From: Armatimonadota bacterium
GTDB taxonomy: Bacteria; Armatimonadota; Armatimonadia; Armatimonadales; Capsulimonadaceae
Assembly: GCA_025354405.1 (NCBI GenBank)
Contig: JANXMY010000190.1
Span: 1 to 64,000, forward strand
DNA length: 64,000 bases
Direction: 5' to 3'
The position numbers and the translations under genes were made by a program. The notes beneath the pieces are model-generated. The model was given only the letters and a program-made list of their open reading frames with translations. It ran no database searches and was not told the DNA's origin. Every line of letters begins with the position of its first letter. The stretch's first letter is position 1. Positions 1 to 49,742 of this stretch are shown here, piece by piece.

Positions 1-1
1 C

Positions 2-841
2 GCAATCATCGCGATATTGGCAGCAATTTTGTTCCCTGTTTTCCAGAAAGTACGCGAGAATGCCCGCCGTGCCTCTTGTCAGTCGAATGAGAAGCAGCTA
101 GGCCTTGCCCTAATCCAGTATACTCAGGACGCCGACGAGAAATATCCAGGTGGGGTTGGAGGGCTTTACAATAGCCGGTCCGGCTGGGCCGCCAAAATCT
201 ACCAGTATGTCAAGAGTACAGGTGTTTACAAATGCCCGGACGACTCCGGTACTCCGCAAACGCTTGCGGGAAACACGGCATCTTTTGTTCCAGTTTCGTA
301 TGCCATGAATGCGAACTTGGACCCCAACTTTTTCTACAGCACCGCGCTAAGCTCGATTCAGGCTCCTGCGTCAACCGTATTTTTGGTAGAAGTTCAAGGG
401 ATGTACGCTGATGTGACAAACACTGCGAATGATCCGGACAGCAATGGGACGACGGGAAACGGAAATGCCAGTACCTGGGGTTCCGAAGAGGTTCTGGGCG
501 GCGACAATGGCGACGGTTTCATGTACGAGATGAACAACCATAATGCTCGCTATGCCGCAGGGAGTTCGACGGGCAGCGGTATGGGCAACCCGCCTCGACA
601 TAGTGGCTGGGATCTCCCCGCAAGGCATACGGACGGTTCCAATTTCCTCCTTGCCGATGGTCATGTCAAGTACTTGCGGCCCATCGCAGTCTCGCCGGGC
701 TACAACAATGGTAGCTCAAACTGCGGTCAGGATCAGTCCGGCACCGGCTGCACAACAAGCGCTGGCTCTGGCATTGCCGCCAATACGGGCAGCCTAACCG
801 CGAATGGTGCGAACTTTGCAGCGACCTTCAGCTCGAATTAA
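2..841 (+). CDS. DUF1559 / H-X9-DG type IV pilin-like protein, 5' truncated by the window
   Basis: Frame 2 reads [43 protein letters not shown], the post-cleavage prepilin helix, and has the C-terminal [17 protein letters not shown] (H-X9-DG) motif. The start lies upstream of the window. Confidence 0.9.
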
Positions 842-12080: not shown

Positions 12081-12280
12081 GAACCTTACCCCGCAGATTA
12101 CTGCGGGGTGAATTCCGTTCTACATTAGACCTCTTGCGTCAGTACCCTGCACTGGAAGTGCAGGTCTTTTGAGGTGCGATTGTCTGCCTTCGCAGACATA
12201 AGAGCTGGCCCTTCGCAAGTGATCTTATGTCTGCGAAGGCAGACAATCGCTTTGCAGAAGACCCGGATTTCTAATCCGGG
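12077..12280. repeat. Cluster of intergenic hairpin repeats, REP/BIME-like
   Basis: Hairpins CCCCGCAG-ATTA-CTGCGGGG (12089-12108) and CCTGCACT-GGA-AGTGCAGG (12146-12164); perfect 28 bp inverted repeat GCGATTGTCTGCCTTCGCAGACATAAGA (12176-12203/12223-12250); CCCGGATT-TCT-AATCCGGG (12262-12280). Confidence 0.85.
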
Positions 12281-34873: not shown

Positions 34874-35314
34874 ATGGCAACCAAACTTTACGTCGGCAAT
34901 CTGAGCTACCAGATGACCGACCAGGAACTTAACGATCTGTTCGCGGAAGCGGGCAATGTCTCCAGCGCACAGGTTGTCACCGACCGTTACACAGGGCAGT
35001 CGCGCGGCTTCGGGTTCGTCGAAATGGCGAGCGAAGATGAAGCGCAGCAGGCAATCGCCGCGATCAATGGCCGAAATGTCGGCAACCGCGCTCTCGTTGT
35101 CAACGAGTCTCGCCCGCGTGAAGGCGGAGCCGGTGGCGGCGGCAGCCGAGGCGGCGGCGGCGGTGGTGGCGGAAGTTACGGCGGCGGCGGTGGTGGCGGA
35201 AGTTACGGCGGCGGTGGCGGTGGCGGAAGCTACGGTGGCGGTGGCGGTGGCGGTGGGAATCGCGGTGGCGGAGGCCGCGGCGGGGATCGCGGCGGCGGCA
35301 ACGATCGCTATTAG
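34874..35314 (+). CDS. Glycine-rich RRM-domain RNA-binding protein
   Basis: KLYVGNLSYQMTDQELNDLF (RNP2), GQSRGFGFVEMASEDEAQQAI (RNP1), then a GGGGGGGSY repeat tail. Confidence 0.95.
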   Translation: MATKLYVGNLSYQMTDQELNDLFAEAGNVSSAQVVTDRYTGQSRGFGFVEMASEDEAQQAIAAINGRNVGNRALVVNESRPREGGAGGGGSRGGGGGGGGSYGGGGGGGSYGGGGGGGSYGGGGGGGGNRGGGGRGGDRGGGNDRY

Positions 35315-46142: not shown

Positions 46143-48104
46143 TTATTTCTTCTCCAATGGCAAAGCGTATACTGCCAGGCCGTGCGATTCGAAAAGAGGT
46201 GGCCCGCTGCCGTCGGTCAGTGCGTAGACCTTATGCAGATACCCGGACGATTCCGGACCAATTGAAAAATACCGGCGATTCACCAGAATATGCGTCACGC
46301 CCATTCCCTGCAAATTCGCCCGCAGATCGTCCGCAGTTTTCAGCTGTGCATAGGGAATCAGCGTGCTATGCTGAGCGTCCCCCCAAAGATAGGAACGATC
46401 GCAGTAGAAGCCCATCGGATTACCGTAGAACACGACCTTTGAGTTTTCCGGAAGCTGCGTGTTGATATAGTCCATGGCTGGATACGTCGTCTCGTTCTGC
46501 CTAAGGTATGCCGTTCGAGACTGCAGTCCAAAGGCAACCGGAATTTCCACGGTCAAAAGACTGACCCCAATATACCCTGTCCAGCCCAGTGAACAGACAC
46601 CAAGGGCAGCCAGCGCCATCCCGGCGAGGGAGCGAACTGCGACTGCCTGCACCAGCACCCAGGCCGCGAGCAGGCAGAGCACGGGGACAAGTGGCAGCAA
46701 GTAGCGGGCATACTGCATCGTCGCAAACCACACGAGTACCGAGAGGACAGCAAAGATACTCAGAGCTTTCAGTCCTATCGGTGCTGCAGGCCCGCGTCGA
46801 AAGACTGGAAAGAACAGCGCGGCCAGCAGGACGGGCGACAGGGCGGAGAGCACCGTCTGGATATCGGTAAAAGGCTGAAGCGATGCCGATGGCGCTTTAC
46901 CGGGCAAAGCTATTCCCGAAGGGGGAAGATGTCCGGGGACAGGGTACATCGTCAGGTTCCAGGGCAGCAAAACCGCCTGCGCGGCACTGCGCGCATCTTG
47001 GGGCGAGGTGCCAACACCAAAGTTTGCCTGTGCCGCACTATACTGTTTTGCGAGATCTGAATTCCAGTAGTTGCCACCTAAGAGATGATAATAAAAGGGG
47101 TAAATCGGGTTCCCTGTCGTAATTGTGGACTTGATGAACCAGGGAGAGCCGACGATCAGTGCCAGCCCGCACCAGAGTGCCACGGACGAGATTGCTTTCA
47201 CCGGAGCTTCGCGCTTGAAGCGCAGCCGCCAGAGCAGCAGCCCAAGTGCCAGCAGCAGCAGGGTCGAGAGGGAAGTCGCTTTCGTGCTCAGAGTCAGGCC
47301 CATCAGCACCGCCCCAGTCTGAAGCCAGCGCTCTTCGCGCCTGACGATACCAGTTCCAACCGCCAGCAGCGTCGCTGTCGCAAAAAAGGTCGGGGCCAGG
47401 TCCGCATACGCGATCCCCGCTTCCCAGAGGGCCAGCGGGGTGGAGGCGAACAGGAGTGCGGCGACCTGCCCGACACGCGGCGAAGAAAGCCGCACTCCGA
47501 AAGCATATATGGCGAGGCATGTGCCTATCCCGCAGCTGAAATGGAACAGCTTTGCCAGCACCACGCCGCTTTCCGTCCCCCGCACTAAGAAACTAAACAG
47601 GTACCACATCTCGGCGGTAAACGCAAAATTTGAGTGGTGTTCCCAAGGTAGTGAGTAGATACGATGCGCCTGCAGATAGATCTTCGGATCGGCCAGGTGG
47701 TAGGAGAGAGCGTCCCATTCCAGGTTCAGCGTCGGGGGGGTCCAGACGCCGATCAGGGCCACACTCGCCAGCAAAGCGAAGCACGCTGCGAGCCCCCACC
47801 CCCAGCGTGTGAGGCGGATCCCCGCCCGGATTGTCGCCTGTATTTCCAAAGCCATCGCCCGGTGCTGCCCGGCACCCAGCCCTGCCAGCAGCACAATTAG
47901 CCCCCAGCCTGCCGCCAAATAAAGACCGCCCAGCAAGCCGAGGGACAGCATCGCATACGCCAGCAGGCCCAGGCCCAGGGCGTAGCCAAAAAGGTTTCGC
48001 TCCAGCCGTGTCGCCGTATCCGGCAGCCTCAGCAGCTTTAGGACTGTCCGTCCTGCGGCTGTTGCCGCCCATGCCGTCAAAACGAACAAGAGAAATTCCA
48101 GCAC
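46143..48104 (-). CDS. GT39/ArnT-like membrane glycosyltransferase
   Basis: Polytopic; LNLEWDALSYHLADPKIYLQAHRIYSLPWEHHSNFAFTAEMWYLFSF. GTG start overlaps the upstream stop (TAGTG). Confidence 0.7.
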   Translation of the reverse strand: MLEFLLFVLTAWAATAAGRTVLKLLRLPDTATRLERNLFGYALGLGLLAYAMLSLGLLGGLYLAAGWGLIVLLAGLGAGQHRAMALEIQATIRAGIRLTRWGWGLAACFALLASVALIGVWTPPTLNLEWDALSYHLADPKIYLQAHRIYSLPWEHHSNFAFTAEMWYLFSFLVRGTESGVVLAKLFHFSCGIGTCLAIYAFGVRLSSPRVGQVAALLFASTPLALWEAGIAYADLAPTFFATATLLAVGTGIVRREERWLQTGAVLMGLTLSTKATSLSTLLLLALGLLLWRLRFKREAPVKAISSVALWCGLALIVGSPWFIKSTITTGNPIYPFYYHLLGGNYWNSDLAKQYSAAQANFGVGTSPQDARSAAQAVLLPWNLTMYPVPGHLPPSGIALPGKAPSASLQPFTDIQTVLSALSPVLLAALFFPVFRRGPAAPIGLKALSIFAVLSVLVWFATMQYARYLLPLVPVLCLLAAWVLVQAVAVRSLAGMALAALGVCSLGWTGYIGVSLLTVEIPVAFGLQSRTAYLRQNETTYPAMDYINTQLPENSKVVFYGNPMGFYCDRSYLWGDAQHSTLIPYAQLKTADDLRANLQGMGVTHILVNRRYFSIGPESSGYLHKVYALTDGSGPPLFESHGLAVYALPLEKK

Positions 48105-48856
48105 TACTTTTCCTTCAGCGGCACAAGCCGCCCCGTAACACGCGGCTTGACGCCAGCGATATCCCACTCAAGGGTTGTCTGGCCCAGCCAATGCCCGAAC
48201 CAGCCCGCCTGCGCGATCGGCACACCCGCGACGACTTTGAGTTCTTCTAATACATTGTGGCTGTGTCCGCCGACAATCAGGTCCAGTTCCGGGCAGGCCG
48301 CCGCGAGCCGTTCATCTTCACGCAGACCGATATGAGTGAGAGCGATCAAAGCATCTACGTTTGGCCGCATGAGCGCGATTTGCTCCTGCGCTGCACGCAC
48401 CGGGTCATCAAAAACGAACGCGCTCACCAGCCGAGCTGCCATGCGAGTAGTTACCATCGGCACGGTCAGCCCAAAGACACCCACGCGCAGACCATTTGGT
48501 AGGGTTTTGAGGAAGTGCGGGACGGTTGGCAAACTCTCTCCCTGGTCGTCGCGCCAGCGGATATTGGCGGATAAAATAGGGAAGCTCGCTTTGCTGATCT
48601 TAAGCCGCAGCAGCGCATCGGCGATATGAAACTCCCGGTTGCCCAAGGTCATCGCATCGTAGCCGGTTTCGGACATCAGCGTTAAAATCGGCTCGCCGCC
48701 GGGCCGAACCCCGACATTGCCCGCCGAGATCGCATCCCCTGAGTCGAGCAGAAGCACGTTTTCATGGCTGGCCTTTGCTTGCCGTATCGTCTCAGCCTGA
48801 AGGTGGCTGAGATGGTTATGGAAATCGTTGGTGTGGAGAAGATGGAGAGTTTTCAT
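48104..48856 (-). CDS. Stand-alone metallophosphoesterase domain (UshA/CpdB N-terminal type), no signal peptide
   Basis: MKTLHLLHTNDFHNHLSHLQ, LLLDSGDAISAG, LGNREFHIADALLRL, LTHIGLREDERLA, DLIVGGHSHNVLEE. ORF-track extension to 49015 runs into the repeat array. Confidence 0.88.
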   Translation of the reverse strand: MKTLHLLHTNDFHNHLSHLQAETIRQAKASHENVLLLDSGDAISAGNVGVRPGGEPILTLMSETGYDAMTLGNREFHIADALLRLKISKASFPILSANIRWRDDQGESLPTVPHFLKTLPNGLRVGVFGLTVPMVTTRMAARLVSAFVFDDPVRAAQEQIALMRPNVDALIALTHIGLREDERLAAACPELDLIVGGHSHNVLEELKVVAGVPIAQAGWFGHWLGQTTLEWDIAGVKPRVTGRLVPLKEK

Positions 48857-48882
48857 TGTGATGTTTCGGAGTTCGGAGCTCG

Positions 48883-49206
48883 CCTCGCAGCATTTTGGAA
48901 TCCACCTCGCAGCCTTAGGAACCCACCCCGCAGCAAGCTGCGACCCTACCCGAAACGGGAGGGTGGACGGTTGGTAGACAGTGTGTTTAGCGATCTTAGT
49001 GGGAGGCATTCTCAAGAGCCTATCTTAAGAGCCTATTTGTAGGCGACAAGACTCAACAAATCTCTTCCCGCTCACCCTCCCGTTTCGGGAGGATCGACAC
49101 GGAGTGTCGGGGTGGGTTCCGAAAGGTCACGGGGTGGATTCCCAAATGCTGCGAGGTGGGTTCCTATCCTGCGGGGCGAGTTCCTAAATGCTGCGAGATG
49201 TGCTCC
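48883..49206. repeat. Two inverted arrays of a ~21 bp unit, each ending in a two-hairpin cap
   Basis: Left units CCTCGCAGCATTTTGGAATCCA, CCTCGCAGCCTTAGGAACCCA plus cap CCCCGCAGCAAGCTGCGACCCTACCCGAAACGGGAGGGTGGA; right arm (reverse complement) has four units plus cap CCCCGACACTCCGTGTCGATCCTCCCGAAACGGGAGGGTGA. Confidence 0.9.
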
Positions 49207-49742
49207 TATTGCTTTACTGTTCCGTCATTGACTCTCGCCTGTTCCAAAAACGCAGATTCGGCCTCTTCCAGCCGGCCCTGACGCCGTAAAATCTCCTCGA
49301 TTGCATCCCGTACCGCCCCTGCCCCGCCGGACCGCGGTGTTACCCAGTCCGCTTTAGCCTTCAGAGTTTCCGCAGCATTCGCGACGGCGATTTTGACGCC
49401 CGCGACTTCAAATGCCGGCAAGTCATTAATATCGTCGCCAACATAGGCGACTTCGTTTGACTGCAGCTCATACTTACTCATCAAGACGCGCATGGCGCTA
49501 GCTTTATCGCCGCACTTCTGCACTAAATCCTTGACTTTCAGCTCCGCCATGCGGTTTTCCACAGCACGGCTTGTCCGGCCCGAAATGACCGCAACCCGTA
49601 GGCCTACCGCCTGCGCCATCACGATCCCCAGGCCATCGGCAACATGGAAAGCTTTTGCCTGCACACCGTCGTCGCCATACAAAATCGTCCCATCAGTTAG
49701 AGTGCCATCGACATCAAGAACGATGAGCTTAACGTATCGCAT
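49206..49742 (-). CDS. kdsC: 3-deoxy-D-manno-octulosonate 8-phosphate phosphatase (HAD)
   Basis: LIVLDVDGTLTDGTILYGDDGVQAKAFHVADGLGI, VISGRTSRAVENRMAEL, YVGDDINDLPAFEVAG. Confidence 0.93.
   Translation of the reverse strand: MRYVKLIVLDVDGTLTDGTILYGDDGVQAKAFHVADGLGIVMAQAVGLRVAVISGRTSRAVENRMAELKVKDLVQKCGDKASAMRVLMSKYELQSNEVAYVGDDINDLPAFEVAGVKIAVANAAETLKAKADWVTPRSGGAGAVRDAIEEILRRQGRLEEAESAFLEQARVNDGTVKQ

Follow-up and report, generated by a model that had tools for sequence, protein, structure and literature searches.

MITEs with internal tandem arrays (PMC4596501) and inverted pairs of hairpins (PMC3116915) are both already known. The BrickBuilt MITE of Porphyromonas gingivalis has one central array of 23-bp units and IS5-type ends, and occurs in 19 copies (PMC4596501). 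A search of the open-access literature yielded no description of the family analyzed here, or of two mirrored arrays round a hairpin-capped core. One copy of this family lies in the window (the whole 64,000-nt stretch of Armatimonadota DNA that was analyzed), and comparison with its relatives makes it likely that the family is a MITE, i.e., a transposon without coding capacity that depends for its movement on a DDE transposase given in trans.

The window copy and its operon

The arrays, hairpin caps and spacer described in the first-pass annotation were all found where it had placed them (48883–49206), and the extent of the element had to be enlarged: the whole insertion, a MITE copy of about 350 bp, covers about 48858–49207. 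Both arms, read inward, show the order GGAACCCACCCCG, hairpin 1, hairpin 2, with degenerate units of ~22 bp outside. On the left there is a putative degenerate transposon terminus (48858–48880, minus strand; CCGAACTCCGAAACATCAC vs. the family consensus CCGAAAGCCTTGCGTNACATCAG, a weak match with indels) adjoining the ATG of a phosphoesterase gene, followed on the plus strand by an array of two truncated end units (48881–48917), the core end motif GGAACCCACCCCG (48918–48930), which is kept in nearly all copies, hairpin 1 with the CGCAGC-AA-GCTGCG allele (48929–48942) and hairpin 2, CCCTaCCCG-AAA-CGGGAGGG (48944–48963). After an asymmetric spacer of ~110 bp (48964–49074), common to other copies according to the alignment across copies, the right side follows on the minus strand with hairpin 2 (49076–49092), hairpin 1 with the CGACAC-TCC-GTGTCG allele (49095–49109), the core end motif (CGGGGTGGGTTCC on the plus strand; 49108–49120) and an array of about four degenerate end units (49121–49207), the terminus being missing on this side. 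The window copy is worn, one terminus being degenerate and the other gone. Matches to the array unit (three with up to 3 mismatches vs. 0 in shuffles) and to the hairpin-2 pattern (two exact matches vs. a mean of 0.12) exceed chance by far.

The insertion lies between the stop codon of a KdsC-like HAD hydrolase (49206–49742, minus strand; PF08282, 62.8 bits; syntenic in locus L103), the upstream gene of the operon, and the start codon of the downstream gene, the calcineurin-like phosphoesterase (48104–48856, minus strand; PF00149, 30.7 bits, cut-off 21.5). The outermost unit of the right array gives the hydrolase the final two bases of its TAG stop (49206–49208). Two syntenic loci, L103 (where the neighboring SIS/CBS protein is 93% identical to that of the window) and L124 (from a Capsulimonas sp.), have no insertion: the hydrolase stop overlaps the phosphoesterase start with nothing between them, as compared with ~350 bp in the window. 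Since the two genes overlap there, they are probably translationally coupled in these relatives, and the window copy would have landed on this stop/start overlap, decayed, and now parts both genes. Another copy, L152, likewise has no counterpart at the syntenic site of a same-genus genome, G001 (about 65 nt vs. 291 nt), so that, as for a MITE, orthologous sites are empty in relatives at both loci.

Copies, termini and transposases

The genome search suggested in the first-pass annotation returned 139 matches in dozens of places of the source genome (G000; 3.6 Mb, 233 contigs). Comparison with related genomes puts this organism close to Capsulimonas within the Armatimonadota. The hairpin-2 pattern gave 121 sites on either strand, equal numbers being what a palindrome should give, and a reversed control pattern gave 0; the 121 sites correspond to roughly 60 elements because each element has two such sites. 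G001 gave 26 matches and a same-family genome, G004, two weak ones; none was obtained in a further 58 genomes, nor in an exact-pattern search of the GTDB genomes, from which near records were possibly left out. Thus, both other copies and covariation (see below), on which the annotation had made its proposal depend, were found. The elements are short (about 0.2–0.35 kb), non-coding and dispersed. Near-complete copies entering the analysis number 54 (flanks were printed for 51), and no weight was given to two palindromic contig starts (L011, L071), which may be assembly artefacts. At one place in G000 (C1:159–607; L023, L028) a MITE copy is interrupted by another repeat, GGCTTTGTTGCATAAATGGCGCACTGTAGGGGCGCTGC..., accompanied by a short array of CCCTCCAAGTTTTGG.

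Inverted copies of CTGATGTNACGCAAGGCTTTC are seen outside the arrays in many of the 51 printed copies, at 21–22 bp from the core or farther where array units intervene. A position-weight scan placed the terminus, CTGATGTNACGCAAGGC, on both sides in 11 of the 54 copies and on one side in 12 (34 terminus-bearing sides, vs. a background of 0.4% per stretch). Terminal inverted repeats are thus present in the family, with one only, degenerate, in the window copy, and, because the true termini sit outside the arrays, the transposon includes the arrays in its interior. Among nine two-terminus copies, the flanks agree at a length of 7 bp (71% identity vs. 11–38% at other lengths; permutation of flank pairing, p = 0.0002), with the target consensus TNANTAA and perfect duplications TGCATAA (L095) and TTACTTA (L128); one two-terminus copy, L129, shows no duplication. 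A target duplication of constant length, 7 bp, is therefore a property of this family, as of MITEs, in copies that have kept both termini.

No strong terminus was detected at about 40 of the 62 array-free ends, which show a weak average vestige of one (p = 0.004), and direct repeats were not in excess in a set of 24 copies that were mostly terminus-poor. Such copies may have decayed, or may have moved some other way. These many copies without termini, together with an assembly that holds no partner transposase, are what a decayed, immobile repeat family now changing by local duplication and gene conversion only would leave; however, target duplications at unrelated sites and the empty sites show past transposition, and this explanation, which covers present activity only, seems to us very improbable.

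The same ends extend beyond elements with this core. In G000, G001, G002, G006 and G036, short elements whose cores are not this one are bounded by a 13-mer, CTGATGTTACGCA, or a one-base variant of it; two of these elements have perfect 7-bp duplications (L245 in G001, L251 in G006) and one has a 9-bp repeat as a putative duplication (L249); among 61 genomes scanned, 29 of the 32 occurrences of the 13-mer fall in this family of genomes. Ends common to an autonomous element were found in G004, where two elements of 1.15–1.17 kb (L183, L191) have the same CTGATGTTACGC ends and encode a DDE transposase, of 360 aa in L183 (NF049921, IS701, 325.5 bits vs. a cut-off of 250) and split into two frames in L191, at which a 7-bp duplication was not seen. 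The incomplete G000 draft assembly has no homologue of this IS701 transposase, so that it is a related genome from which the partner enzyme is inferred. As further candidate partners, the DDE_Tnp_1 genes of both G000 and G001 were considered, and none carry these ends. Known IS701 target duplications are 4 bp long, as opposed to the 7 bp of the MITE copies, and the proposed partner is assigned to the IS701 family by its protein alone. Taken together, the family is probably driven in trans by a DDE enzyme of the IS701-family type, which would recognize the inverted CTGATGTNACGCA ends and direct insertion to a 7-bp, A/T-rich target (TNANTAA) that becomes duplicated; of these steps, ends and duplication are observed directly.

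A different mode of movement, in which a RAYT (Y1) enzyme moves the double-hairpin caps, as REP-like units, in the form of single-stranded DNA, the CTGATG termini being a later or separate acquisition, accords with REPIN anatomy in its inverted hairpin pairs and ~100-nt spacer (PMC3116915), with the many copies that finish flush at GGAACCC without duplication, and with the four Y1_Tnp genes that the search proposed in the first-pass annotation did detect in G000, of which three have inverted hairpin arrays of similar style on both sides. However, none of these four candidate partners is flanked by this cap, and full-length copies carry termini and 7-bp duplications; we regard this mode as unlikely. 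Y1 enzymes are not known to leave a target duplication. In the arm alignment, no GTAG or CGTC tag was seen by eye at the hairpin foot. The early REP/BIME-like description thus holds insofar as the element is repeated, mobile, palindromic and intergenic, but not as regards a RAYT/REPIN system, and RAYT mobility, offered there as speculation, is not supported, as the Y1 genes adjoin other hairpin families. It is from the inverted termini, the 7-bp duplications and the ends common to a DDE IS that a MITE is concluded rather than a RAYT/REPIN element. Little probability is also given to a joint, two-layer scheme, in which the hairpin-capped core would be a mobile or self-amplifying single-stranded DNA unit ending at GGAACCC, preferring or building palindromic flanks and sometimes carried in a DDE MITE, the interchangeable cores all being such units.

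Several other repeats were recorded on the way. Three Y1_Tnp genes of G000 (L062, L063 and L064, on C208, C51 and C20) each lie between hairpin repeats and short tandem repeats of the same style and of other sequences; the fourth (L061, C168:3687–4049) lies near two hairpins, CCCCGAAGCTTGCTTCGCCGGG and CGCAGCTTGCTGCG, and the second of these is identical to the most frequent form of hairpin 1 in the MITE. At positions 12146–12280 of the window lies a further element with inverted double hairpins (CCTGCACTGGAAGTGCAGG/CCCGGATTTCTAATCCGGG; its second hairpin, TGTCTGC..GCAGACA, is conserved), parts of which are 71–85% identical to the repeats flanking the Y1_Tnp gene of L062, and which, because of this identity, looks like a REPIN of that RAYT. 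A 139-nt inverted match in the window (1–139 vs. 1626–1764) likely represents paralogous genes in opposite orientation, and probably no repeat element, because both arms resemble a pseudopilin-like N-terminal coding stretch of L018; tandem CGGCGGCGGTGGTGGCGGAAGTTA repeats with a 27-bp period (35155–35262) are probably a glycine-rich coding stretch.

Hairpin 1, arrays and mirrored arms

Among 97 readable arms, hairpin 1 occurs as CGCAGC/GCTGCG (with CGCAAC/GTTGCG), CGACAC/GTGTCG, CGGTAC/GTACCG and rarer imperfect types. The compensatory change reported for it in the first-pass annotation is borne out by the comparison of many copies: 96 of 114 cells in 19 distinct stems are paired vs. 83 in shuffles, with 0 of 10,000 as high, a figure that is no formal probability because the sequences are related. 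Pairing was counted by a script with the gap set in the loop; the MAFFT cap alignment misplaces this gap. Within one element, the hairpin-1 allele is usually identical in both arms, and mixed copies, such as that of the window, exist. Array units, of which at least one is present in 27 of 51 copies and which make up arrays of zero to four units, resemble an element end that stops within hairpin 1 (GGAACCCACCCCGCAGC, then a few bases specific to the locus). Left and right flanks within a copy are similar (11.1 vs. 8.8 matches, exceeding all 20,000 permutations), and, in joints as well as flanks, the two sides of one copy are more alike than are different copies. By their sequences, the array units look like element ends truncated in hairpin 1, with local amplification and mirroring from one side to the other.

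The arrays, the mirroring and the compensatory change would all follow from template switching during replication of a quasi-palindrome. A long inverted arm with two hairpins between terminus and spacer would make each element a large quasi-palindrome, which should stall replication; switching at hairpin 1 would then generate tandem end units truncated inside this hairpin, switching that copies one arm onto the other would account for mirrored joints and flanks and for arm-matched alleles, and the same process may also mend stems in a compensatory way. The step from compensatory change to a selected folded single-stranded DNA or RNA, taken in the early reading, is not supported: correction of a palindrome by template switching would yield the same pattern, and covariation alone is therefore no proof of selection for a folded RNA.

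A regulatory or structural RNA or DNA element spread for its function (mRNA stabilizer, attenuator or binding-site array) would fit this compensatory hairpin 1, the very stable fold of the 324 nt (z = −11.3 as single-stranded DNA, −11.9 as a transcript) and the placement of copies where flanking ORFs could be called (16 between tandem and nine between convergent ORFs vs. four between divergent ones). We nevertheless consider it highly unlikely: Rfam at the gathering score matches two tRNAs in the window and nothing else, no promoter-like or terminator-like site was found in the window copy, orthologous positions are empty in relatives, and transposon termini and duplications are present.

At five loci (L017, L018, L019, L083 and L087), inverted-repeat host flanks lie directly outside the element (e.g., CCGGATGGCCTTA/TAAGGCCATCCGG), as though the element lay within a larger palindrome or had built one; in the empty-site comparison for L017 and L018, different sequence, with another MITE core in it, stands in place of the intergenic region, or one side only is syntenic.

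Comparison with known systems

Overall, the MITE family adds to Armatimonadota a MITE superfamily with several different cores and one set of ends, and it provides a case of two overlapping operon genes separated by a MITE. Its whole-stem hairpin-1 alleles, arrays of zero to four units and arms alike on the left and right form a natural series for palindrome evolution, so that template-switch repair becomes testable inside one genome.

What is unusual is that each end carries two DNA hairpins and a variable tandem array; the element works like known MITEs. The other-core elements (L154/L245, L156/L249 and L158/L239 in G001, L251 in G006 and L246 in G000) have the same 13-bp ends and similar lengths (150–440 bp), and differ in their interiors. 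With the IS701-family IS of G004 (L183, L191) the family shares the CTGATGTTACGC(A) inverted ends, whereas these IS are 1.15 kb long with a transposase, their interior is not homologous to the MITE, and the 7-bp duplication is unseen at L191. REPINs and BIMEs with their RAYTs (PMC3116915, PMC3733652) resemble the family in inverted hairpin pairs, a ~100-nt spacer and many intergenic copies; here, however, 7-bp duplications and DDE-type termini are present, and no Y1 gene is flanked by the cap. BrickBuilt (PMC4596501) is likewise a short non-coding MITE with ends matching a full-size IS, an internal tandem array and many end-less copies, whereas in the family described here the hairpin-capped core has one of two mirrored arrays on either side and the ends agree with those of an IS701-family element.
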